Shown piece by piece: positions 1 through 10,527 of a DNA stretch of 64,000 nt. The DNA is from Thermoleophilaceae bacterium (lineage in GTDB: Bacteria; Actinomycetota; Thermoleophilia; Solirubrobacterales; Thermoleophilaceae), in NCBI GenBank assembly GCA_040901445.1, contig JBBDYQ010000004.1:1-64000 (forward strand). Reading direction: 5' to 3'. Under the pieces are notes generated by a model. That model had not been told where the DNA came from and ran no database searches. It saw only the letters and a program-made list of their open reading frames with translations. Positions within the stretch are counted from its first letter, which is position 1. Each line of letters starts with the position of its first letter. Both the position numbers and the translations under genes were made by a program.

Positions 1-62
1 GCGCACAATCCGCCCAAATCGTCTCCCCACCGCCTCCGGACGCGAATAGACCGAAACCAGTG

Positions 63-150
63 GACGCCGCTCGCGGCGTCGGGGGAGACACCGCAGCCTG
101 ATCGGCAAGCCGGAGGCTCCAGAAACCGCGGCAGGGGACGCCGCAGACAA
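63..150 (+). promoter_or_regulatory. Structured leader upstream of secreted protein gene
   Basis: Three possible hairpins lie in a row before the start codon at 161. They are GACGCCGC/GCGGCGTC (63-70 with 73-80), AGCCT/AGGCT enclosing CGGC-AA-GCCG (about 96-119), and CGGC/GCCG near 131-145. A purine-rich ribosome-binding stretch follows just before the ATG. I could not match it to a known riboswitch consensus. It may be a regulatory RNA leader or only GC-rich fold-back sequence. Confidence 0.25.
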
Positions 151-160
151 GGGAGAGAAG

Positions 161-1459
161 ATGCTTCGACGAGGTAGAAGTGCGACCATGGGGATGCTCG
201 TGGCGCTCCTGAGCGCGGCCGCTCTGGCCGTGCCGGCGGGGTCCTCCGCCGCCGCCAACAACGAGATCGTCTACGAGGGGGGCGCTGTTCCTCAGGACCT
301 TCTGGATCGGTTCGCGGACTGTCCTTCCGAGTCCGACTTCCCCGGCACGGGCGTCTACCTCTACTGCGCCCACGTAAAGGCCTACGACGGCGAGCTGAAG
401 CTCGGCAAGGTCAACGCGTCGATCGACGACCCGATCGAGGTCACAATCGGCATCGCTCTGATTGACGGCAAGACGGTGATGATCATGCCGCCCGGTCCGG
501 GTGGTCCTCCCAAGCCGGTGAAGATCTCCGGCGGCATCCTCGGCATCCCGGCTCTCGATCCGGTTCTCGACAACTCCCTCGGGCTGTTGTCCGTCTCGGC
601 GACGCCCCAGCTCGGGGAAATCGGTGCGGAGGCTGCGGCGAACACGCCGACCCACCTGAACAAGATCACACTCCCGCTGTCGATCAAGCTGGACAACACG
701 CTGTTCGGGAAGAACTGCAGCATCGGAACCCCGGAGGAGCCGTTCACGATCAACCTCACGACTGGCACGACCGCGCCTCCCGCCGGTGTCGCGCCGATCT
801 CCGGCACGCCACCCGAGGAATCCGTCACGTCCCAGTGGACCAATTACTCGGGAACCGGGGCGCCCGGGACGCAGAGCGGGACCGGGGCGGAGTCCGTCGA
901 CAACACGTTCGCGGTTCCGGGTGCGAAGAACTGCGACCTGCTCCCGTCCGACATGCGTGCTCTCGGGCCGAAGCTCGGCCTCGGCTCGCTGTTCGGGCCG
1001 GATCGGGGTGTGTTTGACCCGGTCATCAACCAGCAGGTCGGGCTCCCGAGCGCGGCCGGCAACAACCGGATGTCGATCAAGGTCGACACCGAATGGGTCA
1101 CTGGCACGACCGTCGGCGTCATCAAGGGCGAGAACACGCTCCAGTGGACGACGTCTGAAGGATCGTTCGAGTTCGGCGACGTCCCGGTCGGCTCAAGCGT
1201 GGACAAGACGATCACAGTGACGAACATCCTCGACAGCGAGCGGACGTTCGGGAGCAGCTTCTTCTCGCTGTTCACCCTGCCCGAGGACACATCGATCGTC
1301 TCGGACACGTGCGAGAACAGCACGATCCCGGCCGGCGGCACGTGCCAGATCACCCTCCGGTTCGCGCCGACGTCGCCGGGCCAGAAGTTCGGCCTCTACA
1401 GCGTGGACGCTCCGCCCGACAGCTCTATGTCGATCAACGCGAGGGGACGGGGCATCTAA
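161..1459 (+). CDS. Secreted protein with C-terminal choice-of-anchor/ASH-like domain
   Basis: A 432-residue exported protein of unknown function. Residues 1-31 form a Sec signal peptide: RR-rich start, Leu/Ala core and an Ala-rich cleavage region (SSAAA). The middle is a Gly/Pro/Thr-rich beta-type region with few cysteines. Residues about 333-428 (FGDVPVG, TITVTN, CQITLRFAPTSPG) match the immunoglobulin-like repeat seen in choice-of-anchor D and ASH/HYDIN domains, usually involved in adhesion or surface attachment. The ATG at 161 follows the purine-rich stretch AAGGGAGAGAAG. The gene is monocistronic and ends at a strong hairpin terminator. No anchor motif is visible, so it is probably released or loosely cell-wall associated. 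Confidence 0.75.
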   Translation: MLRRGRSATMGMLVALLSAAALAVPAGSSAAANNEIVYEGGAVPQDLLDRFADCPSESDFPGTGVYLYCAHVKAYDGELKLGKVNASIDDPIEVTIGIALIDGKTVMIMPPGPGGPPKPVKISGGILGIPALDPVLDNSLGLLSVSATPQLGEIGAEAAANTPTHLNKITLPLSIKLDNTLFGKNCSIGTPEEPFTINLTTGTTAPPAGVAPISGTPPEESVTSQWTNYSGTGAPGTQSGTGAESVDNTFAVPGAKNCDLLPSDMRALGPKLGLGSLFGPDRGVFDPVINQQVGLPSAAGNNRMSIKVDTEWVTGTTVGVIKGENTLQWTTSEGSFEFGDVPVGSSVDKTITVTNILDSERTFGSSFFSLFTLPEDTSIVSDTCENSTIPAGGTCQITLRFAPTSPGQKFGLYSVDAPPDSSMSINARGRGI

Positions 1460-1487
1460 CCGGCGTAGAGACAGACACGATTCCTAA

Positions 1488-1523
1488 GCGAGGAGGGCCC
1501 GGCGTCTGCCGGGCCCTCCTCGC
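1488..1523 (+). terminator. Rho-independent-type terminator
   Basis: A perfect 16-bp inverted repeat (GCGAGGAGGGCCCGGC and its complement) with a 4-base loop GTCT lies 29 bases after the stop of the secreted protein gene. The T-tract is weak, as is usual in GC-rich actinobacteria. It could also end transcription arriving from the opposite strand. Confidence 0.85.
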
Positions 1524-1627
1524 TTGTGCGTGCCGGTGCTTCGCCGCTACTGCTCAGATACGTCGGCGGGGGTGGCAAAAGCGGAGATCGAGCTTGACGT
1601 CGAACTTGTTGCCGGGGAGGCCTCGGC

Positions 1628-2065
1628 CTACCGGCTCGGCATCCGGAAGAGAGCGCTCATGACGACGGCGGTCATCAGGTTGCCGCCGATCGTCAGCTTG
1701 CCTCGCGAGTAGAGATCGGGCGCACTCGCGACACCCGCAGCGAGCTGCAGGAACTCCGGCCCGCCTACTTCGATGACGGCCGAAGGATCAGCGCCGCCGT
1801 TCCGCTTGATGCGGGCCCGGCCGTCGGCGATCGACACCTGGTACTGGGTGGCTCTTCCTCGCCGGCGCCCGCCGATCCGGAACTCGAGCACTCCGCGCGT
1901 CTTCGCGGCTTGCTCGGCGTCGAACCGGAAGGGCATCACCGCGAAGATCGTCCGCAGGACGACGGCCCGCAGAGGTGAGCGCATCACTCGGAGCAGCTGG
2001 TCGTCCGAGGCCCGGGCGACCGTCCGCGCGAAGTGGCGCGCCGCCGCGTCCGTTGCCCTGTCCAC
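1628..2065 (-). CDS. SCP2 sterol-binding domain protein
   Basis: A 145-residue single-domain protein of the SCP2/sterol-carrier family. These bind acyl-CoA, fatty acids or sterols in a hydrophobic pocket. The family features visible are FRIGGRRRG followed by a beta strand, the segment GADPSAVIEVGGPEFLQLAAG, and a closing LTIGGNLMTAV motif. It lies 63 bp downstream of, and in the same direction as, the TetR gene at 2129-2788, so the two are probably one transcript. This is the only enzyme- or carrier-like gene next to the TetR array, which makes it a candidate target of one of those regulators. No signal peptide is seen, so it should be cytosolic. Confidence 0.75.
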   Translation of the reverse strand: MDRATDAAARHFARTVARASDDQLLRVMRSPLRAVVLRTIFAVMPFRFDAEQAAKTRGVLEFRIGGRRRGRATQYQVSIADGRARIKRNGGADPSAVIEVGGPEFLQLAAGVASAPDLYSRGKLTIGGNLMTAVVMSALFRMPSR

Positions 2066-2128
2066 CAGCGCTCGCAGGGTCCCACCCTAATCGTCCCGGC
2101 CCGGGGCGGAACGGAAAACCGGCCGCGG

Positions 2129-2788
2129 CTAGGAAAGCGCCCGGTGCCCGCCGTAGGGAAGCAGAGCTACGTAGACGAAGTCGTCGAGATCGTCGGGCAA
2201 TTCCTGCGCGCGGTGCTCGAGGATACGCGTGAACAGCATGCCGGCCAGCGAGTCGACCACCGCCTCAGCCACGAGGTTGGGCCGCTCGACGCCCACGTTC
2301 ATCTCCGGACGAAGCTCTGGATCGAAGTAGCTGCGCAGCGCGGTGAGCACCAGGTGCCGCCTGGCGAGGCCGCTCTCGCCGACGGCGAGCGCCTCGATGA
2401 ACACCACCCGCGCGAAGGCATGTTCGGCCGCGAGGAACTCGAGCAGCGCCTTGATGCCGCCGCGGAGGCGACCGGGCCACGCGTCCCCGCCCTCGTCATA
2501 GCCGTTGTTGACCGCGAGCGCGAGTGCCAGGAAGCGGGTGTCGTTTGCAGACCAGAAGCAGTCCTCCTTGTCGGCGAAGTTCTCGTAGAAGGTGGCCTTC
2601 GAAACCCCGGCCCGCTTGGTGATCTCCTGGACCGTCGTCTCGAGGTAGCCCTTCTCGGCAACGAGCTCAACCACCGCATCCTGCACGCGTTCGCGTTGCG
2701 ACTTGACGACGTGATCCCGCGACAGGCCGTGCCGTCCGGGGGGCAGGCGCCTCGCTGCGCCGGCGGTCTGCGGTCTCTCGACATCCAT
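2129..2788 (-). CDS. TetR/AcrR family transcriptional regulator (SCP2-linked)
   Basis: A 219-residue TetR regulator. The helix-turn-helix lies at about residues 33-80 (ERVQDAVVELVAEKGY, TTVQEITKRAGVSKATFYENF, DKEDCF). The Arg/Pro/Gly-rich extension before it (RLPPGRHGLSRDHV) is shared with many actinobacterial TetRs. The C-terminal half is the variable ligand-binding domain, with an LLEFLAAEHAFARVVFIEA helix. It is divergent from the TetR at 2913, and three copies of a palindromic operator separate them. It precedes the SCP2 gene. It is less similar to the other array members (KATFYENF against QxVYNYVGSK), so it probably belongs to another subgroup. Confidence 0.9.
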   Translation of the reverse strand: MDVERPQTAGAARRLPPGRHGLSRDHVVKSQRERVQDAVVELVAEKGYLETTVQEITKRAGVSKATFYENFADKEDCFWSANDTRFLALALAVNNGYDEGGDAWPGRLRGGIKALLEFLAAEHAFARVVFIEALAVGESGLARRHLVLTALRSYFDPELRPEMNVGVERPNLVAEAVVDSLAGMLFTRILEHRAQELPDDLDDFVYVALLPYGGHRALS

Positions 2789-2822
2789 GCGTCTCCGAGG
2801 CTACTGCATCTGTCCGGGTTTA

Positions 2823-2881
2823 TGAACGGGCCGTTCAAAGTTTATGAACGGGGCGTTCAATCTTTATGAACGGAGCGTTCA
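2823..2881. promoter_or_regulatory. Triple palindromic operator TGAACG-N3-CGTTCA
   Basis: Three 15-bp palindromes (2823-2837, 2845-2859, 2867-2881) have exactly 22-bp periodicity, each in a TTTATGAACG context. Spacing of about two helical turns puts them on one DNA face, as expected for cooperative TetR binding. They fill the space between two divergent TetR genes. The third copy overlaps the -35 box of the rightward promoter. The binding protein cannot be told from sequence alone. Confidence 0.85.
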
Positions 2882-2912
2882 CAAGAGCAACGATTCTGGT
2901 TATAGTGGCTCA
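2878..2912 (+). promoter_or_regulatory. Sigma-70-type promoter of TetR gene 2913
   Basis: A -35 box TTCACA (2878-2883, 5 of 6 consensus) is followed by a 17-bp spacer and a -10 box TATAGT (2901-2906, 5 of 6). The predicted start of transcription is about 2912-2913, on the GTG start codon, so the mRNA would be leaderless. The -35 overlaps the third operator palindrome, so binding there should block RNA polymerase. Confidence 0.75.
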
Positions 2913-3518
2913 GTGGCTCCGGAACTCGCCGTCCGAACGCAGCGGGCCGAACCGATCTTCGCGGCGGCCGAGCGGCTGTTCGCAGAGCACGGTTACCGAG
3001 CCGTCTCGCTCGCCGAGGTCGCCGGCCACGTCGGGCTCCCCGAGCAGCACGTATACAACTACGTCGGGTCGAAGGAGACGCTCCTGCTGGCCTGCTTCAA
3101 GCGTGGACGGCGGCGGTTGCTGGAGGCGCTCGACGCTCCGGATGCCGACCTCGCGGACTCCCGGCGCTACCTCGAGCAGTCGCTCGCGGCGATCCTCATG
3201 TTCTTCCGCGACCATCGTGAGGCCTGGGAGATCCTCGAGACCCACGCGCGTACTCACGGTGGCCCGGTGGCCACGGAGCTCGCGCGGGCGCGGTCGGAGT
3301 TCGCACGCCTGCTGTCCCAGCTGCTGGCCGAGGTGCGGGCCGTCTCCGGCAAGGACCCGGGCTCCGTGAACACCGAGACCACGGCCTTCGCGATCATCGG
3401 CGCGCTCGATGCCGTCGGCACCTGGTGGGCAGCCAACCCCGACGTCCCGCCCACGGAGGTCGCCGCCCATATGGCGGGCGCGCTGTGGGGCGGGCTGAGC
3501 GGCGTCTTCGCCGGCTGA
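2913..3518 (+). CDS. TetR/AcrR family transcriptional regulator (array member 2)
   Basis: A TetR regulator of about 201 residues. An in-frame ATG exists at 2844, but it lies inside the operator and upstream of the promoter. The GTG at 2913 sits 6 bases after the -10 box and gives a normal TetR N-terminus, so I chose it. The HTH reads ERLFAEHGYRAVSLAEVAGH then VGLPEQHVYNYVGSKETL. The C-terminal half has the AWEILETHARTHGGPVATEL and TTAFAIIGALDAVGTWW segments shared with array members 3 to 5, so these are paralogues. It is followed after 30 bp by the next TetR on the same strand. Confidence 0.85.
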   Translation: MAPELAVRTQRAEPIFAAAERLFAEHGYRAVSLAEVAGHVGLPEQHVYNYVGSKETLLLACFKRGRRRLLEALDAPDADLADSRRYLEQSLAAILMFFRDHREAWEILETHARTHGGPVATELARARSEFARLLSQLLAEVRAVSGKDPGSVNTETTAFAIIGALDAVGTWWAANPDVPPTEVAAHMAGALWGGLSGVFAG

Positions 3519-3548
3519 CCGGCGGCAACGCCGCGCTTCTGCGGCCTG

Positions 3549-4160
3549 ATGAACGGGCCTCCCGCCGACACCGATGGGACGCGCGCCGAGCGGGAGGAGC
3601 AGATCCTGCAGGCGGCCGAGCGACAGTTCGCAGAGGCGGGCTTCTACGCCGTCTCGATGGATGCCATCGCCGACGAGGTGGGGCTGTCGAAGCAGATGGT
3701 CTACAACTACGTCGGCTCGAAGGAGTCGCTCTACGTCGCCTGCTTCCGCCGGGCGCGGGTCCAGCTCCTCGGGCTCCTGGCGGGCGCGGCGGCCGGCCAG
3801 ACGCCCGGCGAGCAGCTGCTGCTCGGCGTGAATGCCTTCTTCAAGTTCGTCGAGGAGCACCGGGAGCCCTGGGCGCTCATCCACGAGCACGCGTCGCAAC
3901 GTGGGGGCCCGTTCGCCGCGGAGGTCAACGACATGCGGACCGAGATAGGCCGGTTGATCTCCCAGTTGTTCGTGGACGCCCGCGAGGCCGTGGGCAACGA
4001 TCCCTCCTCGGTGAACACCGAGGTCACGGCCTACGCGGTCCTCGGGGCCATGGAGTCAATGGCCCACTGGTGGAAGGACCACCCCGAGGTACCGCGCGAA
4101 GAGCTGACGCGCGAGATGGTCGCCGTGGTGTGGACGGGCCTGGAGCGGGCGGTGAGATGA
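3549..4160 (+). CDS. TetR/AcrR family transcriptional regulator (array member 3)
   Basis: A 203-residue TetR regulator. HTH: EREEQILQAAERQFAEAGFY, VSMDAIADEVGLSKQMVYNY, VGSKESLYVACFRRAR. The recognition region SKQMVYNYVGSKE is identical to that of the TetR at 4862-5530, so the two probably bind the same operator. The C-terminal domain keeps the paralogue signature (WALIHEHASQRGGPFAAEV, SSVNTEVTAYAVLGAMESMA, WW). It lies 30 bp after the previous gene, apparently co-transcribed. Its ATG sits in ATGAACGGGCC, a half-copy of the upstream operator, which may be a trace of duplication or chance. Confidence 0.9.
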   Translation: MNGPPADTDGTRAEREEQILQAAERQFAEAGFYAVSMDAIADEVGLSKQMVYNYVGSKESLYVACFRRARVQLLGLLAGAAAGQTPGEQLLLGVNAFFKFVEEHREPWALIHEHASQRGGPFAAEVNDMRTEIGRLISQLFVDAREAVGNDPSSVNTEVTAYAVLGAMESMAHWWKDHPEVPREELTREMVAVVWTGLERAVR

Positions 4161-4187
4161 CCCGCTCGACCGCGGCATCCCGTCGCA

Positions 4188-4205
4188 TTACTTGGTATCA
4201 AGTAA
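4188..4205. promoter_or_regulatory. Operator TTACTTG-N4-CAAGTAA (copy 1)
   Basis: A perfect 7-bp inverted repeat with a 4-base spacer (GTAT) ends 2 bases before the ATG of the TetR at 4208. Near-identical sites occur at 5627-5644 and 5688-5705 next to two other TetR genes. Its place over the transcription/translation start implies repression. Confidence 0.8.
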
Positions 4206-4207
4206 AC

Positions 4208-4846
4208 ATGCAGAACCCCGAGAGGCTCCCCTCCCACCGCCCCCAGATACTGCGGACCGAGCGCTTGGCCCAGATCGCGGTTGCCGCCGACCGCCGCTTC
4301 GCGGTGAGCGGCTACGAGGGGACTTCGCTCGAGCAGATCGCCGGCGATGTCGGGCTCCCGTCGCAGATGGTCTCGAACTACGCAGGGTCGAAGGGTGACC
4401 TCTACGTGGCCTACTTCCGCCGAGCTCGCCGCAGCTTCCTGCGTCGCCTCGATGAGGCGGGCGAACGCTCCGCGGTGGCGGCGCGCGGCCCACGCTGCCA
4501 GCTGGAGCTGGGAATCGACTACTTCTTCCGCTTGATCGAGGCCCATGGGGAGGCCTGGGCGCTGGTCCGCCGGCGCGGTTCAGCGGGGGAGGCTCCATTC
4601 GCATATGAGCTCATGAACTCCCGCGCGGAGCTGGCCCGCCTGCTGGCACAGCTCCTCGCCGAGGGCCGCGCCGCCGCCGGAAACCCGACCGTCGTGAATA
4701 CTGAGATTGCGGCCCACGCGATCATCGGCGCGGCCGAAGCGGCGGCGGAGTGGTGGCTCCAGCATCCTCGGGTTCCGCGCGGCGAACTCGTGGAGCGGCT
4801 GGCCGCGCTGCTTTGGATCGGACTGGAGCGGCAGCTCAGCGCGTGA
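4208..4846 (+). CDS. TetR/AcrR family transcriptional regulator (array member 4)
   Basis: A 212-residue TetR regulator with HTH ERLAQIAVAADRRFAVSGYE, SLEQIAGDVGLPSQMVSNY and AGSKGDLYVAYFRRAR. The ATG at 4208 is preceded by the TTACTTG palindrome and no clear Shine-Dalgarno. A longer open frame runs upstream but enters the preceding TetR gene in another reading frame. The C-terminal half has the paralogue pattern (AWALVRRRGSAGE, TVVNTEIAAHAIIGAAEAAAEWW). Compared with members 3 and 5, the recognition helix changes KQMVYNYVGSK to SQMVSNYAGSK, so specificity has probably diverged. It converges on the TetR at 4862, with 15 bp between stops. Confidence 0.9.
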   Translation: MQNPERLPSHRPQILRTERLAQIAVAADRRFAVSGYEGTSLEQIAGDVGLPSQMVSNYAGSKGDLYVAYFRRARRSFLRRLDEAGERSAVAARGPRCQLELGIDYFFRLIEAHGEAWALVRRRGSAGEAPFAYELMNSRAELARLLAQLLAEGRAAAGNPTVVNTEIAAHAIIGAAEAAAEWWLQHPRVPRGELVERLAALLWIGLERQLSA

Positions 4847-4861
4847 CGGCCCGCGAGGGCG

Positions 4862-5530
4862 CTAGTCCGCTCTGACCGGGTGATCCCAGAAGTGGTCGTG
4901 GAGCAGGTTGTCGAGGCCCATCCAGACCACGTCCATCAGCCGGGCGACGACGTACTCCTTCTCGATTTCCGGATGGTCGAGCCACCAGCTCGCCATACCC
5001 TCAGCCGCGCCGACGATCGTGAAGGCCGTGATTTCGGTGTTCGCGGTGGCCGTGTCCTTCCCGGCGGCGGCGCGCGCATCGGTGAGCAGCTGGGAGATGA
5101 GGCGTCCGATCTCTGCGCGTGCGGCGGCCACCTCACCGGCGAAGGGCCCGCCGCGTGCGGACGCCTGCTCGTTGAGGATGGACCACGCCTCGCGGTGCTC
5201 CTCGATGAAGGTGAAGAAGGCGAGTACGCCGTACCAGAGCTGCTCTTGTGGGCCCGTGGCCTGCGCGGCGCCCTGGTCGACGACGCGCTCGAGGTGGAAG
5301 CGGGCGCGGCGGAAGCAGGTGAGGTACAGCTCCTCCTTGGAGCCGACGTAGTTGTAGACCATCTGCTTCGAGAGCCCGACCTCGCCGGCGATGGCATCCA
5401 TCGAGACGGCGTAGTAGCCGGACTCCGCGAACTGCCGCTCGGCGATCGAGAGGATCTGCTCCTCGCGCTCCGCGCGCGGCACGCGCTTGCGGCCGTTGGC
5501 GCTTGCCTTCTTAGTGGCGGGCTCGGTCAT
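4862..5530 (-). CDS. TetR/AcrR family transcriptional regulator (array member 5)
   Basis: A 222-residue TetR regulator with a basic N-terminal tail (KKASANGRKR). HTH: EREEQILSIAERQFAESGYY, VSMDAIAGEVGLSKQMVYNY, VGSKEELYLTCFRRAR. It is very like the TetR at 3549, with the same recognition helix, and the C-terminal half also aligns (SILNEQASARGGPFAGEV, TEITAFTIVGAAEGMASWW). It is transcribed away from the TetR at 5709. The shared 178-bp intergenic region carries two TTACTTG-type operators, so it may regulate itself and its neighbour. A half-site (ACTTGATC) near 5560 lies close to its start. Confidence 0.9.
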   Translation of the reverse strand: MTEPATKKASANGRKRVPRAEREEQILSIAERQFAESGYYAVSMDAIAGEVGLSKQMVYNYVGSKEELYLTCFRRARFHLERVVDQGAAQATGPQEQLWYGVLAFFTFIEEHREAWSILNEQASARGGPFAGEVAAARAEIGRLISQLLTDARAAAGKDTATANTEITAFTIVGAAEGMASWWLDHPEIEKEYVVARLMDVVWMGLDNLLHDHFWDHPVRAD

Positions 5531-5626
5531 GCCGCGAATTCCTGGTCTTGTCGGGACTTGATCGTTCTCATTCGATTGCGGCCGGGTCGGGATCCAGTGC
5601 TCGAATACCCTCGTTGCCGGTCTATG

Positions 5627-5644
5627 TTACTTGCCTACAAGTTT
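5627..5644. promoter_or_regulatory. Operator TTACTTG-N4-CAAGTTT (copy 2, imperfect)
   Basis: The left arm TTACTTG is identical to copies 1 and 3. The right arm is CAAGTTT instead of CAAGTAA, with a 4-base spacer CCTA. It lies midway between the divergent TetR genes at 5530 and 5709, 61 bp from copy 3. Confidence 0.6.
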
Positions 5645-5687
5645 GACGGGGGAGGCACGATCCGTCTGTCATCGAATCGCTATAGGG

Positions 5688-5705
5688 TTACTTGTGATCA
5701 AGTAA
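5688..5705. promoter_or_regulatory. Operator TTACTTG-N4-CAAGTAA (copy 3)
   Basis: A perfect 7-bp inverted repeat with spacer TGAT ends 3 bases before the ATG at 5709. A TATAGG box (5681-5686) sits just upstream, so the site covers the likely transcription start. Arms are identical to copy 1. Confidence 0.8.
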
Positions 5706-5708
5706 TCC

Positions 5709-6347
5709 ATGCGAGATACCACAGACGACGACATCACGGGGGCCGCCGGTGGCGGTCCCACCAGCGCGGGGGAGCGGCGGTCGCGAGCGGCGCGCCTGCG
5801 CGCCATCGAGGAGGTGGCCTGGCGGCAGTTCGCCGCCGGCGAATACGAGGCGGTGGGCCTCGCGGAGATTGCAGCCGAGGTGGGGCTGGCGCGGTCGACC
5901 GTCCAGACTTACGTGGGATCGAAGCGAGATCTCTACCGTCAATGCGTGGACCGTGCGGTCGCCGAGCTGGATGCCCATCTCGCCATGGCAGCGGGCGGGG
6001 ACGGCAACCACGCCGACCGCCTGCGGCGAGCGCTCGCGGCTTTCCTCGACTTCGCAGACGAGCGACCAGAGGCCTGGGCGCTCGTCGACCGTCACCTTTT
6101 TGTGGCCGCCGGGCCTTTCGCGGCCGACGGCGCCCGCATGCGCGAGCAGCTGCTGCCGCGGCTCGAGGAGTTGGTAGCCGGTGCGCGCGTTCCGAGCAGC
6201 CCCGGTGCGACGGCGTCTGCAGTACTCGGCTCGCTCCACGCGCTGGCCAGCTGGCGGAGCGAGCGCCCCGACATCCCGCGGGAATCGGTCGTCGAGCGTG
6301 CGACGGCGCTGATCTGGTTCGGCCTGGCGCTCGAGCTGGGCCGGTGA
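5709..6347 (+). CDS. TetR/AcrR family transcriptional regulator (array member 6)
   Basis: A 212-residue TetR regulator. HTH: RLRAIEEVAWRQFAAGEYE, VGLAEIAAEVGLARSTVQTY, VGSKRDLYRQCVDRAV. The recognition helix (ARSTVQTYVGSK) differs from members 3 and 5. The C-terminal domain is shorter but keeps the pattern (AWALVDRHLFVAAGPFAADG, ASAVLGSLHALASW, IWFGLALEL). The ATG at 5709 lies directly behind operator copy 3. It is divergent from the TetR at 4862-5530 and is followed by a hairpin at 6355-6389. It completes six TetR genes in about 4.2 kb. Confidence 0.9.
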   Translation: MRDTTDDDITGAAGGGPTSAGERRSRAARLRAIEEVAWRQFAAGEYEAVGLAEIAAEVGLARSTVQTYVGSKRDLYRQCVDRAVAELDAHLAMAAGGDGNHADRLRRALAAFLDFADERPEAWALVDRHLFVAAGPFAADGARMREQLLPRLEELVAGARVPSSPGATASAVLGSLHALASWRSERPDIPRESVVERATALIWFGLALELGR

Positions 6348-6354
6348 GGCCGGG

Positions 6355-6389
6355 GGCGCCCTCGGCAAGGACGTGATCGAGGGGGCGCC
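6355..6389 (+). terminator. Terminator-like hairpin after TetR array
   Basis: GGCGCCCTCG (6355-6364) pairs with CGAG-GG-GGCGCC (6378-6389) around a 13-base loop, with a two-base bulge. It sits 8 bases after the stop of the last TetR gene and before a convergent gene. Confidence 0.5.
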
Positions 6390-6516
6390 GGCTGTTCGGG
6401 CTCATCACGATCGTCGGCGTCTTCGGCAAGGTCACCTGGCGCAAGACGCGCGCGCGTCGACATCTACCTCCACGACGGCAGGAGCTACGGCAGGGCGTCC
6501 ACCGACGCGCTGTGCA

Positions 6517-6912
6517 TCATGCGCCGGCGGTGACCGGCGCGTACCTGTGGTGCAGCGCCAGCGCGTTGCCGTCGGGGTCCTCGAAGAACGTCTGGTGGCA
6601 CACGCCGGAGTCGAGGATGTCGCCCTTGAACGTGACCCCGCGGGACTCCAGCTCTGCGCGCGCCGCCTCGACGTCCTCCACGCGCAGCTCGATGGGGTGG
6701 ACGTGCGGGCTGAACTCCATGCCGAACGCGTCGGACTGCATGACCGCGATCGTGAGGTTGCCGGTCTCGAACTCGCCCGCGGGCCTGTCGCCCCAGCGCT
6801 TGGAGAGCGGCAGGCCCAGCACGCCGCCGTAGAACTCCGCGGCGGCATCGAAGTCCCTGGTGCCGACGGCGATGAAGTCGGTGCCGGTGATGAGCGAGGT
6901 CGAAGTGGGCAT
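6517..6912 (-). CDS. VOC (glyoxalase/bleomycin resistance) family protein
   Basis: A 131-residue single-domain VOC protein with two beta-alpha-beta-beta-beta modules: DFIAVGTRDFDAAAEFYGGVLGLPL, then HPIELRVEDVEAARAELESRG and EDPDGNALALHHRY. His near the C-terminus and Glu residues at the ends of the strands are in the usual metal-binding positions. Substrate is unknown; the family includes glyoxalases, dioxygenases and antibiotic-binding proteins. AAGGAG lies 8 bases before the ATG. It is upstream of and co-directional with the CocE-type hydrolase, with a 14-bp palindrome between them. Confidence 0.85.
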   Translation of the reverse strand: MPTSTSLITGTDFIAVGTRDFDAAAEFYGGVLGLPLSKRWGDRPAGEFETGNLTIAVMQSDAFGMEFSPHVHPIELRVEDVEAARAELESRGVTFKGDILDSGVCHQTFFEDPDGNALALHHRYAPVTAGA

Positions 6913-6927
6913 GGTGGCTCCTTGGTC

Positions 6928-6941
6928 TTCGGGGCCCCGAA
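6928..6941. repeat. Palindrome TTCGGGGCCCCGAA between VOC and hydrolase genes
   Basis: A perfect 14-bp palindrome in the 34-bp gap between the hydrolase stop (6947) and the VOC start (6912), close to the VOC ribosome-binding site. It could be a short terminator for the hydrolase gene or a fold affecting translation of the VOC gene. Confidence 0.4.
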
Positions 6942-6946
6942 TCGTC

Positions 6947-8794
6947 TCAGCGCCGCTCGGGCAGAAGCAAGTACGACCCCGCGTACACGGTGTTCTCCAC
7001 CGGCTTGAGCACGGTCAGGTGGTTGGCGGTGTCCGCGGAGTAGAGCGCGATGCGCAGGCGGTGGCCGGGGCGGAAGCGCTTGGCCGTGGGCCAGACCTCG
7101 ATCTTGTAGTTCGTGCGCTCGCCGGCGCGGACCGGGCGCAGGTGCGCGCGGTCGTGGTAGGGCGTGGGGACGATCACCTCGCCGGTGGTGTCGTCCACCT
7201 GCGTGCGGGCGGGGTCGAGCTCGCGGTGGGAGGCGCGCAGGAAGCCGGACTGGATGAGGGTGGAGCGGCCGTCGGGCGACACCTCCGACAGCTTCACCAC
7301 GAAGTCCGTGTCGAGGTGGGGAGGGAACGTCTGCTCCGCGCCGAGAAGCGGCGCGTTCGTGCCGGCGTTCACGCCGGCGAGCGGCACGGTGCTCGCGTCC
7401 AGCGACAAGGTGATCGGGCCCTGCACCACCAGGTCCTCGTCCAGCGGCGGTGTGGAGAACGTGAGCCCCTTCCACTCGTCCTCGGCGGCCTGGTCGGCCT
7501 CGCGCTGGGGCACGCCCGCGGCGTTGTCCCACTTCGAGAACAGGTTCTCGCCCATGCCGGCGAGCGGGTTCCACGCCCACGAGCCGATGGCGCCGCCGGT
7601 CCCGGCCGCCGGCGCCGAGCGCGACAGCCCGCCACCCTCGGTCAGGTAGTGGCGCTCGAACTCGGTGCCGGGCGGCGGCCACGTGTCCGCGCCACGCCAC
7701 TCGCACGGCCCGTCGAGCGACTCCACCATCTCGCACCAGCTGATGCGCGGGCCGTCGAACCAGTCCGGTTGCGCCGCGCCGTCGAGCCAGTGGCGGTACC
7801 AGTCCACCAGCCGCGTGTCCCACGGCTGGTGGTCGAGGAAGTGCGAGCCGGTGTGGTTCCACGGGCCGATGACCGCATAGTTGGGGCCGCCGACCTCGCC
7901 GGCGGCCTCGAGCTCCAGCGAGCGCTGGACGGCCTGCACCTGGCCGCGCGTGAATGCGTCGTACCAGCCCTCGAGGTGGAACACCGGCAGGTCGAGCTGC
8001 TCCATGCGGTCGATGACCGAGGACGCGCGGTAGAAGGGGGAGTCGAACGGCCGGCCGAGGTAGGTGAGGAACATCGGGTCGTTGCGGGTGTGGTCCACGA
8101 TGGACCGCAGCGCCAGCTCCGGATCCGGGTTCGTCGTGAGGTCTGCGCCCTGTGCGTTGTAGGCGGTCGTGCCGCCCGACCAGATCACGCCGAACGAGCC
8201 GGTGAGGATGCCGCCGGTGTAGACGATGTCGCGGTAGAGGTCGGACAGGGCGCGCTGCGGGGCGATCGTCCTCAGGTGCGGCGGCGTGCCCTTGGGCGAG
8301 GTGGCGATGAGGTACTGGTTGATGCCCGAGTAGGAGCCGCCGAACATCCCGACCTCGCCGTTGCAGTGCTCGTATTCCGTGGCGAGCCACTCGATGGCGT
8401 CGTAGCCGTCCTCCTGCTCCTGCTCCAGGAACACGCCGTCGTACTCGCCTTCGGAGCCGCCCGTGCCGCGCGCGTCGAGCTCCATGAACACGAAGCCGCG
8501 GGCGGGGAAGGTGCCCGCTCCCTCCGCCGCGCGCGCCTCCTTGCGGTAGGGCGTCATCTCGAACAGGCACGGGAACGCCTGGCCGGCGGGCTGGTCCGCC
8601 TTGGGACGCGGGCGATGGATGTCGGCCACGAGGCGCGTGCCGTCGGGCATGGGCACCACCACGTTCTGCTCGACGATCACGTCGTAGGACGGCTCGGCGG
8701 TGGTCACGCCGGCGAGCGCCGGCGAGGCGTAGATCAGGCTTGCGGCCAGCGTGGCCGCGACGGCGGCACGGCATCCTCCCACGCGGGGGAGCAT
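6947..8794 (-). CDS. Secreted CocE/NonD (S15) family alpha/beta hydrolase
   Basis: A 615-residue exported serine hydrolase of the CocE/X-Pro dipeptidyl-peptidase family. Residues 1-28 form a signal peptide ending ASPALA. The catalytic domain starts at about residue 35 (VPMPDGTRLVADIHRP is typical). The nucleophile elbow is FGGSYSG near residue 155, inside the family block EVGMFGGSYSGINQYL. The C-terminal jelly-roll (LSLDAS, VKLSEVSPDGRSTLIQSG, NYKIEVWPTAKRFRPGHRLR) is the usual substrate-pocket domain. The family cleaves acylated esters and amides. The ATG at 8794 directly precedes the signal peptide. Substrate cannot be told from sequence. Confidence 0.9.
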   Translation of the reverse strand: MLPRVGGCRAAVAATLAASLIYASPALAGVTTAEPSYDVIVEQNVVVPMPDGTRLVADIHRPRPKADQPAGQAFPCLFEMTPYRKEARAAEGAGTFPARGFVFMELDARGTGGSEGEYDGVFLEQEQEDGYDAIEWLATEYEHCNGEVGMFGGSYSGINQYLIATSPKGTPPHLRTIAPQRALSDLYRDIVYTGGILTGSFGVIWSGGTTAYNAQGADLTTNPDPELALRSIVDHTRNDPMFLTYLGRPFDSPFYRASSVIDRMEQLDLPVFHLEGWYDAFTRGQVQAVQRSLELEAAGEVGGPNYAVIGPWNHTGSHFLDHQPWDTRLVDWYRHWLDGAAQPDWFDGPRISWCEMVESLDGPCEWRGADTWPPPGTEFERHYLTEGGGLSRSAPAAGTGGAIGSWAWNPLAGMGENLFSKWDNAAGVPQREADQAAEDEWKGLTFSTPPLDEDLVVQGPITLSLDASTVPLAGVNAGTNAPLLGAEQTFPPHLDTDFVVKLSEVSPDGRSTLIQSGFLRASHRELDPARTQVDDTTGEVIVPTPYHDRAHLRPVRAGERTNYKIEVWPTAKRFRPGHRLRIALYSADTANHLTVLKPVENTVYAGSYLLLPERR

Positions 8795-8809
8795 ACCCCC
8801 GCGCCGCGG

Positions 8810-9577
8810 CTAGTCGATCAGCCTCTCCTCCATCCGGTGCACCGCGACGCGCCACAGCACGACGGCGAACACCATGAGCGCCGCCACGCGGATGAGGTCG
8901 GTGGCCTCGAAGCCGAATGCCGAGCCGCGCACCAGCTCGACCAGATGGTGGAGCGGGTTGACCTGCGCGGCCCACTGGAACCCCTCGGGCAGGCCGTCGA
9001 TCGGGAAGAACGTGCCGGCCACGAGGAAGAGAGGCGTGATGACGAGCGTGGTGACGTAGTTGAACTGGTCGATCTTCGCCACGCTGGCCGCCACCGCGAT
9101 GCCGAACGCCGCGAACCCGAGCGCGGTGATGAAGGCGAACAGCGGCACGAGCAGCATCCCCGGCGCCGGATCCAGGCCGAAGGCCATCGTCACCAGCAGC
9201 GGGAAGCAGCCGAAGAAGCCGGAGCGGATGCCGATCCAGAGCATCTCCGCGGTCACGAGCTCCTCCACGTCCACCGGCGCGGCGAGAATGGCGTCGTAGG
9301 TGCGCTGAAAGCGCTCCTTGACGAAAGTGCCGAACATCGCCGGCAGCGCGCTGGAGAAGATCACCGCGGTGGCCACCATCCCGGTGCCCACGAACTCGAC
9401 GTAGTCGAGGCCGTCCACCCGGTCCACCACCGTGGCGCCCAGGCCGAGGCCGAAGGCCAGCAGGTAGACGATCGGCTCGAGCGTGCTGGAGAAGGTGGTG
9501 GCCTTCCAGAAGGTGCGGAAGTTGGCCACCTCGCGGCTCATGACGCCGGTGATGGCCGCGGGCTCGAGCCGGCGCAC
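8810..9577 (-). CDS. ABC-2 type transporter permease
   Basis: A 255-residue ABC-2 family membrane subunit with about six transmembrane helices (for example LEPIVYLLAFGLGLGATVV, LLVPLFAFITALGFAAFGIA, FNYVTTLVITPLFLVAGTFF). The LVAGTFFPIDGLP loop and the terminal ALMVFAVVLWRVAVHRMEERL are typical of DrrB/NodJ-like exporters. The GTG start at 9577 overlaps the stop codon of the ATPase gene by one base (TAGTG), so translation is coupled. With that ATPase it forms an efflux pump for a drug, lipid or polysaccharide; the substrate is not evident. Confidence 0.9.
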   Translation of the reverse strand: MRRLEPAAITGVMSREVANFRTFWKATTFSSTLEPIVYLLAFGLGLGATVVDRVDGLDYVEFVGTGMVATAVIFSSALPAMFGTFVKERFQRTYDAILAAPVDVEELVTAEMLWIGIRSGFFGCFPLLVTMAFGLDPAPGMLLVPLFAFITALGFAAFGIAVAASVAKIDQFNYVTTLVITPLFLVAGTFFPIDGLPEGFQWAAQVNPLHHLVELVRGSAFGFEATDLIRVAALMVFAVVLWRVAVHRMEERLID

Positions 9578-10527
9578 TACTCCGCCTCCTCGCCGGTGAG
9601 CAGCACGAAGACGTCCTCCAGCGACGCGGCGCGCCGGATCGCCTCCGGCGGGAACGCGCCCTCGGAGGCGCGCTCGGCGCCCACGATCGCGATGGCCGGG
9701 CCGGCGGGGCGCACGCGCAGTCCCTGGCGCTCGGCGGTGGCGCGCACCTCGGCCAGCCGGCCCGGCGGCCCGTAGAACTCCGCCGTCTCGCGCCCGGCGT
9801 GCTCGGCCACCAGCTCGGACGGCCGCCCGCGGGCGATGATCTTGCCGTGCGCCATCAGCGCCACCTCGTCGGCCAGGCGCTCGGCCTCCTCGATGTAGTG
9901 GGTGGACATGAGGATGGTCGCGCCCTCCTCGCGCAGCCCGTCGATGAGCGACCACATCTCCGTGCGGATCTGCGGGTCGAGGCCCACGGTGGGCTCGTCG
10001 AGCAGCAGCAGCCGCGGCCGGTGCACCAGCCCGCGCGCGAGCAGCAGGCGCCGTCGCATGCCGCCGGACAGCTTGTCCACGGCGTCGCGGCGGCGGCCCT
10101 GCAGCCGTGCGATGTCCAGCGCGCGGTCGACCGCCTCGCGCACGTCGGGCACGCGATAGAGACGCGCGAACACGGCGAGGTTGTCCTCCACCGTCACGTC
10201 CACGTCGAGGTTGTCGAGCTGGGGCACCACGCCCATCTCGGCGCGTGCCTCCTTCGAGCCGGCGGGAAGGTCGCGGCCGAGCACGCGCAGCTCGCCGCTG
10301 TCGGCGATCGCCTGCCCGGTGAGCAGCCTCATGGTGGTGGACTTGCCCGCGCCGTTGGGACCGAGCAGGCCGAGGCAGATGCCCTCGGGCACGTCCAGGT
10401 CGAGCCCGTCCACGGCGGTGATCGGGCCAAAGCGCTTGACCACGCCGCGAAGCTGGATCGCGGGCGCGGAAGCTCCCGCGCCCGCCGGCGCGGCCTCGGC
10501 GGGCTCCTTCTCGGCCAGGTCGGTCAC
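9577..10527 (-). CDS. ABC transporter ATP-binding protein (DrrA/CcmA-like)
   Basis: A 316-residue ATPase of the ABC-2 exporter. Walker A is GPNGAGKST near residue 57, the Q-loop is VVPQLDNLD, the signature is KLSGGMRRRLLLARG, Walker B is [13 protein letters not shown] and the H-switch is MSTHYIEEAERL. The C-terminal extension (about 245-316) with ASLEDVFVLLTGEE is characteristic of daunorubicin-resistance-type ATPases. A Pro/Ala-rich N-terminal tail precedes the domain. The GTG start at 10527 gives the full nucleotide-binding domain. It is operonic with the permease at 8810-9577. Confidence 0.92.
   Translation of the reverse strand: MTDLAEKEPAEAAPAGAGASAPAIQLRGVVKRFGPITAVDGLDLDVPEGICLGLLGPNGAGKSTTMRLLTGQAIADSGELRVLGRDLPAGSKEARAEMGVVPQLDNLDVDVTVEDNLAVFARLYRVPDVREAVDRALDIARLQGRRRDAVDKLSGGMRRRLLLARGLVHRPRLLLLDEPTVGLDPQIRTEMWSLIDGLREEGATILMSTHYIEEAERLADEVALMAHGKIIARGRPSELVAEHAGRETAEFYGPPGRLAEVRATAERQGLRVRPAGPAIAIVGAERASEGAFPPEAIRRAASLEDVFVLLTGEEAE

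Follow-up and report, generated by a model that had tools for sequence, protein, structure and literature searches.

We examined a window of 64,000 nucleotides (positions 1 to 64,000 of the forward strand of contig JBBDYQ010000004.1, assembly GCA_040901445.1, Thermoleophilaceae bacterium). From 2129 to 6347 the list of open reading frames holds six TetR-type genes, T1 to T6, with nothing else between them (Table 1). A preliminary description of this DNA had reported six TetR regulators packed into the interval, and the reading frames and TetR domains bear this out. It had also put the gene of an SCP2 domain protein within the cluster, but that gene flanks the interval, downstream of T1. The DNA-binding domain TetR_N (PF00440) is above the Pfam cut-off in five of the six proteins. 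The helix-turn-helix (HTH) of T4 is below it (20.5 bits, cut-off 24, 4.2e-4), and we kept T4 as a TetR because its C-terminal domain, TetR_C_46, scores 62.6. All six frames are intact. The whole 3.54-Mb genome has 55 TetR_N matches; under random placement, an estimate that assumes 3,400 genes, 6e-8 runs of six would be expected.

Table 1. Genes, palindromes and promoter-like element of the TetR cluster, in window coordinates.
Feature	Position	Strand	Sequence	Remarks	Basis
SCP2 (sterol-carrier/lipid-transfer) domain protein	1628-2065	-		145 aa	Pfam SCP2 33.6 bits, cut-off 21.3
T1, TetR	2129-2788	-		another subfamily (LPPGRHGL...SQRERV type)	TetR_N only; trees
op1 copy a	2823-2837		TGAACGGGCCGTTCA
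op1 copy b	2845-2859		TGAACGGGGCGTTCA	overlaps at its beginning with the ATG annotated for T2
op1 copy c	2867-2881		TGAACGGAGCGTTCA	overlaps -35-like hexamer of T2
T2, FasR-like TetR	2844 or 2913-3518	+			Pfam, tree
T2 promoter-like element	2878-2906	+	TTCACA-17-TATAGT		1 found, 0.3 expected
T3, FasR-like TetR	3549-4160	+			Pfam, tree
op2 before T4	4188-4205		TTACTTGGTATCAAGTAA	2 bp before ATG 4208; in-frame if the start is 4157
T4, FasR-like TetR	4208 (or 4157)-4846	+		degenerate HTH	Pfam, tree
T5, FasR-like TetR	4862-5530	-		shortest branch in clade	Pfam, tree, fold model
op2 variant	5627-5644		TTACTTGCCTACAAGTTT	2 mismatches; ~97 bp upstream of T5 start codon
op2 before T6	5688-5705		TTACTTGTGATCAAGTAA	3 bp before T6 ATG
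T6, FasR-like TetR	5709-6347	+		most diverged copy	tree

The first 6 kb have a G+C content of 66-69%, against 72% for the window, and GC3 of the called genes there is 0.83-0.93, rising to 0.96-0.97 in the three genes that follow. Since the window starts at a contig end, genes further out are not in view. We found no second array of this kind in 232 genomes of the order and 399 of the class, none of them marked as belonging to the host's genus. A plasmid search gave nothing close (the best match listed had 36.7% identity), and a scan of a named genome collection (query A1) gave only distant TetRs among the matches listed. No comparable six-gene TetR array came up in the available text of the literature searched.

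All proteins except T1 resemble FasR. TetR_C_46 (PF21943, cut-off 27 bits) is found above its cut-off in T2 (33.1), T3 (62.6), T4 (62.6) and T5 (67.5) and below it in T6 (23.4), and T1 has no match. The FasR model NF053731 is the top NCBIfam match for T2 to T6, but at 34-82 bits (best in T5, 82.3) these are far from the equivalog cut-off of 330, so we call the proteins FasR-like and not FasR. We modelled the fold of T5 alone, as a single chain (pLDDT 91.6), and the top four in its fold search are chains of FasR (TM, normalised by target length, 0.82-0.87; Mycobacterium tuberculosis structures PDB 6o6n, 6o6o and 6o6p), followed by 3f1b and, lower down, FadR chains. Leu98 and Phe123 of FasR are retained in T3 and T5. 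At the mouth of the tunnel, Leu106 is matched in the alignment by Ala or Asp. According to the available text of PMC7382501, FasR binds three inverted repeats and is released by long acyl-CoA. FasR activates the fas-acpS operon in the same available account, whereas here five copies face each other's promoters.

In a tree against 64 relatives and paralogues, T2 to T6 form a single clade with 100/100 support, and a tree with 60 rows recovered it again. T2 to T5 are 43-63% identical by BLASTP and are the clear paralogues they had been taken for; T6, left out at that time, also belongs with them (33-39%). T1 is similar to the others only in the HTH, and the trees place it in a different TetR subfamily, which rules out a single ancestor for all six. 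The local duplication proposed in the preliminary description therefore stands for T2 to T6 and fails for T1, the one member for which a check of the phylogeny showed an unrelated origin. The nearest relatives of T2 to T6 come from the same family and order as the host. The sequence comparisons strongly support T2 to T6 as products of local duplication, the original being a regulator like FasR of M. tuberculosis. The T6 branch is long (1.82), and an AU test did not reject a T2-T5 clade without T6 (p 0.18), so of the order of duplication we claim only that T5 branches first in the tree. T1-like and FasR-like TetRs are likewise near one another in three other genomes (G018, G005 and G013). An old, conserved T1/FasR-like pair was considered and dropped; T1 falls outside the T1-like proteins of those genomes, and for that reason we claim no ancestral pair.

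The recognition helix is identical in T3 and T5 (LSKQMVYNYVGSK) and differs in T4 and T6, as had been noticed earlier, and it differs in T2 too. At the position of FasR Tyr77, all 57 of 57 relatives carry Tyr, whereas T4 has Ser (LPSQMVSNYAGSK, a degenerate HTH) and T6 has Gln (LARSTVQTYVGSK). In T4 the Lys beside it, present in 56 of the 57 (Arg in one), is replaced by Ser; T6 has Arg there and T2 has Glu (LPEQHVYNYVGSK). Lacking family-invariant residues, T4 and T6 may not bind DNA, judging from these substitutions. Tyr is also absent at this place in 9 of the 47 other TetRs of the host genome, so its absence is no proof of lost DNA binding. T3 and T5 are 86% identical in the DNA-binding domain and 53% in the ligand domain; for relatives in the 50-55% and 55-60% ligand-domain bins, the DNA-binding domain averages 73% (sd 6). 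This contrast is consistent with the layered sensors of different ligands suggested earlier, the layering itself being our reading of it. The dimer-forming a8-a9 stretch of T3 and T5 is 46% identical, whereas relatives whose cores are similar average 65% (sd 6) there, which rather suggests insulation of the two proteins. The idea of a heterodimer gained no support for T3/T5 from conservation of a8-a9.

Two classes of palindrome lie at the cluster's gene starts. The three copies of op1 (TGAACG-N3-CGTTCA) fill the T1/T2 gap with a 22-bp period, and a scan of the 3.54-Mb genome confined exact op1 to that gap. All 16 one-mismatch sites are within predicted genes. With up to two mismatches allowed, the pattern matches 325 times per strand and its reverse, a control that ignores CG content, 84 times, so weak extra op1 sites may exist. 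Tandem op1 is present in 3 of the 232 order genomes: the host, one where it is covered by a called reading frame (G157), and one where an unrelated TetR and a gene read as a hydrolase flank it (G164). No GAACG-N2/3-CGTTC palindrome was present at any of the 19 loci examined around T1-like genes (L158-L176). Because ATG 2844 overlaps the second op1 copy, T2 probably starts at GTG 2913, 7 nt past its promoter-like element. With that spacing, and the start as read from the sequence, the T2 transcript is likely leaderless. T4 has a possible alternative start at ATG 4157, sharing the sequence ATGA with the stop codon of T3.

The second palindrome, op2 (TTACTTG-N4-CAAGTAA), precedes T4, T5 and T6. 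Its 14 specified bases are all identical between T4 and T6, genes with just 52% of their bases in common, and 12 of the 14 are kept before T5. Exact op2 occurs in the host genome before T4 and T6 only and, among the 232 order genomes, in the host alone; a weak op2 with two mismatches precedes a gene for a secreted protein by ~45 bp (C16:24429). The op2 ends, TTAC...GTAA, agree with a palindrome of the family, [CT]TAC-N5-GTA[AG], which we found upstream of 14 of 58 loci of the family (0.29 expected in shuffles) and at none of 40 loci that belong to other TetRs in the host genome. Exact TTAC-N5-GTAA has two sites in the host genome, both outside the cluster. One (C9:119649) is at the 5' end of a called frame and the other (C25:64997) is ~22 bp before one. 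The preliminary description suggested that the regulators perhaps act on the same operators, a view that operators upstream of unrelated genes only would have refuted; all six op1 and op2 sites precede TetR genes of the cluster. Two cluster-confined operator classes and the single T3/T5 helix speak for shared operators, and the unshared helices of T2, T4 and T6 speak against extending this to every member.

We think that this is probably a locally duplicated, cross-regulating repressor module next to the unrelated T1 and SCP2. Common operators precede several of its member genes, and SCP2, 63 bp from T1 and last in a presumed T1-SCP2 unit, is the only non-regulatory gene in a unit headed by a cluster promoter. 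A FasR-like ancestor with TetR_C_46 would have been duplicated locally four times to give T2 to T6. In an upper layer, T1 or T2 repressor would bind the triple op1 as side-by-side dimers, covering the T2 promoter and the T1-SCP2 side and so setting the level of T1-SCP2 and T2-T3(-T4). In a lower layer, T5 and T3, with their one recognition helix, would bind the op2 sites at T4, T5 and T6, controlling the amounts of those copies whose own DNA-contact residues have changed. From the likeness to FasR, the ligand may be a long acyl chain or acyl-CoA, with diverged ligand domains giving each copy its own threshold or ligand, and the output may be SCP2 as a lipid-binding protein. A fully closed circuit arising from tandem duplication, in which T1 to T6 read two private operator classes, T3 and T5 are the DNA readers, T4 and T6 are partners or decoys, and several acyl ligands are integrated into one SCP2 output, is a more speculative version that we regard as unlikely in its entirety.

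A plainer possibility, which we find rather doubtful, is an ordinary set in which each TetR represses itself (T1/T2 through op1; T4, T5 and T6 through op2) and its neighbour, with no cross-control or shared ligand class. Every site does adjoin a TetR start, and the divergent pairs T1/T2 and T5/T6 have palindromes between their genes, like actinobacterial divergent TetR/target pairs; in the available text of PMC3511530, a majority of TetR-family regulators control a divergently oriented gene lying within 200 bp. The same text has a regulator as the divergent neighbour for 6 (2%) of 250 divergent TetR genes in Streptomyces, whereas both divergent pairs here are regulator/regulator. The ordinary set also has to account for near-identical op2 at T4, T5 and T6, whose recognition helices all differ, an identity that implies a shared reader.

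The changed Tyr77 equivalent and neighbouring Lys in T4 and T6, the changed Lys in T2, the sub-threshold HTH of T4 and the op2 sites before T4, T5 and T6 would also suit an arrangement where T4 and T6 (perhaps T2) have no specific DNA binding and pair with T3/T5 as dominant-negative or ligand-sensing subunits, their supply controlled by op2. We judge this improbable: the other host TetRs equally without Tyr, and a T3/T5 a8-a9 stretch that is not unusually conserved, count against it. It also seems unlikely that the array was gained recently as a block of distinct composition, its copies redundant or decaying and forming no circuit, with true targets beyond the contig end or elsewhere under looser operators. 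The lower G+C and GC3, the contig end, the long T6 branch and the lack of the array in any other genome examined point that way, but the frames are intact, operator bases were kept while the genes diverged, both palindromes are at the regulators' own promoters, and the nearest relatives share the host's family and order.

The cross-regulating module that we favor appears to work like the paralogous TetR receptor/pseudo-receptor networks for gamma-butyrolactones (MmfR/MmyR, AvaR1/AvaR2, SrrA/SrrB). In the available text of PMC5625687, MmfR and MmyR are homologous TetR repressors of one gene cluster with common operators, including those of their own genes; AvaR1/AvaR2 and SrrA/SrrB are, in the sources as available, likewise clustered homologous repressors that act, or are thought to act, on common operators. 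No membership test, however, places the cluster in this group. Its proteins score at most 28.1 with the gamma-butyrolactone receptor model (ScbR, NF041196; cut-off 150), and unlike those networks it has six adjacent regulator genes. Those networks act on antibiotic clusters and include genes for signal synthesis. Neither was seen at this locus: among the genes at 1-10,500, with the contig beginning at window position 1, we recognised no signal-synthesis gene or biosynthetic cluster.

Paralogous repressors commonly disperse and acquire separate regulons. Here the duplicates stayed adjacent, with operator copies before each other and no detectable strong site elsewhere in the genome, which makes the locus a small natural system in which to study cross-talk between duplicated repressors, whether avoided or exploited. 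T3 and T5 share a DNA code and have diverged in their dimer and ligand parts, whereas T4 and T6 have lost DNA-contact residues. The two operator/regulator sets may be candidates for synthetic circuits. SCP2-type genes also adjoin FasR-like TetRs at three other loci (G000:C17, G027:C210 and G021:C70), and at a fourth (G018:C242) the adjoining gene is an oxidoreductase with an SCP2-like match.

The six neighbouring TetR-type genes, T1 to T6, likely form a putative, unproven regulatory circuit. The array given in the preliminary description is confirmed with small corrections, and the SCP2 (lipid-transfer-domain) gene that had been placed inside the cluster turned out to flank it. The genome is 3.54 Mb in 25 contigs, among them contig C4, whose first 64 kb make up the window, and has 55 TetR_N matches. 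Its proteins give the impression of an actinobacterium, perhaps a member of the Thermoleophilia. Taking the gene number to be 3,400, we expect 6e-8 runs of six TetRs under random placement, and none of 20,000 random placements produced a run of at least five. G+C at 1-6400 is 66-69% compared to about 72% for the whole window, and GC3 of the called genes there is 0.83-0.93 compared to 0.96-0.97 in the next three genes. This low-G+C block, which starts at the contig end, may be an island.

Features of the array and of its two palindrome classes, op1 (TGAACG-N3-CGTTCA) and op2 (TTACTTG-N4-CAAGTAA), both predicted operators. Window positions unless a contig (C) or extracted locus (L) is named; G000 is the genome under study
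Feature	Position	Remark
SCP2 gene	1628-2065	flanks cluster, behind T1
Six TetR-type genes	2129-6347	order T1(-), T2(+), T3(+), T4(+), T5(-), T6(+)
T2 start candidate ATG	2844	overlaps op1 copy no. 2
T2 promoter-like site	end at 2906	TTCACA-17-TATAGT
T2 start candidate GTG	2913	next after promoter-like site
T3 beginning	3546-3562	TGATGAACGGGCC
T4 possible start ATG	4157	overlaps T3 stop as ATGA
op2, exact	4188-4205	
T4 possible start ATG	4208	
op2 variant	5627-5644	two mismatches
op2, exact	5688-5705	
op2-like site	C16:24429-24446 (L149 about 1030-1047)	two mismatches; ~45 bp upstream of secreted-protein gene near contig end
Two op1-type palindromes	L152 1501-1543 (G164:C148:6174-6216)	30 bp apart
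Double SCP2 gene	L066 7032-7946 (G000:C17)	two SCP2-like units in one protein; divergent from FasR-like TetR

The cluster had been attributed to local duplication, which holds for T2-T6 but not for T1. In a tree of 69 proteins (order relatives, a small number of named actinobacteria and paralogues from the genome itself, with the partial locus L025 left out), T2-T6 are a single clade with support of 100/100, and a second tree of 60 rows, from which nine long-branch or distant rows were removed, agrees on this clade. T1 groups elsewhere, with two TetRs of contig C9, in a tree of 53 TetRs of the genome under study. Because of these trees we consider local duplication of the five members T2-T6 secure and do not count T1 as a local duplicate. 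In the 69-protein tree T5 is the first to branch off within the clade and has its shortest branch (0.24), while T6 has the longest (1.82); in the 60-row analysis, an AU test also allows a T2-T5 clade that leaves T6 outside (p 0.18). The TetR_C_46 C-terminal domain is above cut-off in T2-T5, just under it in T6, and absent from T1 in the domain search. FasR is the top NCBIfam match of T2-T6, with scores far under the equivalog cut-off.

We searched a T2-T6 profile in 61 genomes (own and relatives), 232 of the order and 399 of the class; no relative listed from any of these sets is marked as belonging to the same genus. Among the matches listed for these sets, no other genome has two T2-T6-like genes less than 5 kb apart, and T2-T6-like genes elsewhere are solitary.

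Three copies of op1 with a 22-bp period lie in the T1/T2 gap, and the genome has no exact op1 outside it. All 16 of the one-mismatch op1 sites in the genome are within called reading frames (frames were called by a codon-position script). Window shuffles gave a mean of 0.04 matches for op1 and, in 100 shuffles, 0 for op2. Exact op2 occurs in one of the 232 genomes of the order, the genome under study. Its 14 fixed bases are all identical before T4 and T6, genes that share 52% of their bases. When three mismatches are allowed, the genome has 7 op2 sites per strand compared to 9 for the reversed control, so we regard weak op2 sites as noise. The secreted-protein gene on C16 is a possible op2 target.

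Upstream of FasR-like genes we found [CT]TAC-N5-GTA[AG] at 14 of 58 loci (0.29 expected from mono-nucleotide shuffles), often repeated 14-15 bp further on, and at 0 of 40 loci upstream of other TetRs in the genome under study. Compared to this family palindrome, op2 retains the TTAC/GTAA ends and has a wider gap (N10). This favours, without being proof, a FasR-like protein as the predicted reader of op2. The family palindrome was seen at L050, L051, L062, L108, L110, L111, L114, L115 and L117; at most of these loci a second, similar palindrome, complete or as a half, follows 14-15 bp beyond the first.

The recognition helix (the DNA-contact part of the helix-turn-helix, HTH) does not differ between T3 and T5, which are 86% identical in the HTH and 53% in the ligand domain. 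For relatives whose ligand-domain identity is 50-60%, HTH identity averages 73% (sd 6). The identity of T3 and T5 in the dimer-forming stretch a8-a9 is 46%, compared to 65% (sd 6) in relatives with similar cores, and this low likeness points to predicted T3 and T5 homodimers that would be insulated rather than mixing. The FasR Tyr77 position is Tyr in 57 of 57 relatives and in T2, T3 and T5, Ser in T4 and Gln in T6. The loss in T4 and T6 should not be over-read, since among the genome's 47 other TetRs 9 also lack this Tyr. A Lys position is Lys in 56 of 57 relatives and Arg in one; it is Glu in T2, Ser in T4 and Arg in T6.

The GTG follows the end of the promoter-like site, an arrangement that suggests a leaderless T2 mRNA starting at this GTG. 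If T4 starts at the upstream ATG, op2 falls within its frame. T2, T3 and T4 are probably one transcription unit. Where T3 begins, 11 bases (ATGAACGGGCC) of op1 copy a are repeated, perhaps an op1 half-site relic carried along by duplication.

The top fold match of the T5 model (pLDDT 91.6) is FasR, followed by 3f1b, with FadR chains lower. Passages on FasR in PMC7382501 describe a long acyl-CoA bound in a tunnel, a ligand that frees FasR from DNA. T3 and T5 both retain Leu98 and Phe123 of FasR, whereas T2 has Ile at the Phe123 position and T4 has Phe at the Leu98 position; none of T2-T6 retains Leu106. SCP2-type genes also adjoin FasR-like TetRs at G000:C17, G027:C210 and G021:C70, and at G018:C242 the neighbour is an oxidoreductase (read as luciferase-like) with an SCP2-like match. 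Such neighbours occur at few of the FasR-like loci, most of which were viewed with 1.5-kb flanks only, and other loci adjoin P450 or flavin monooxygenase genes. From the FasR likeness and the SCP2 neighbours, our best guess is that the signal is lipid-related and SCP2 the output. At G000:C17 the gap between the double SCP2 gene and the FasR-like TetR contains CTAC-N6-GTAG.

Clustered TetRs with common operators are known already. The MmfR/MmyR system, a butyrolactone-type network, has clustered homologous TetRs with operators in common, as described in PMC5625687; the proteins of the present array fail the family model of such networks. We recognised no signal-synthesis or biosynthetic genes near the array, in a window that starts at a contig end. 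For Streptomyces, PMC3511530 counts a regulator as the divergent neighbour for 6 (2%) of 250 TetR genes.

The op1-type palindromes of L152 have an unrelated TetR (SKTTIYKWWPTK) on one side and a gene read as a hydrolase on the other, and judging by their sequence may be the op1 operator type paired with a different TetR subfamily. Many of the order's genomes carry TetRs of the T1 subfamily (LPxGRHGL...SQRER) back to back in twos or threes (L096 on G000:C9, L158, L160, L161, L164, L165, L170-L172, L174 and L185).
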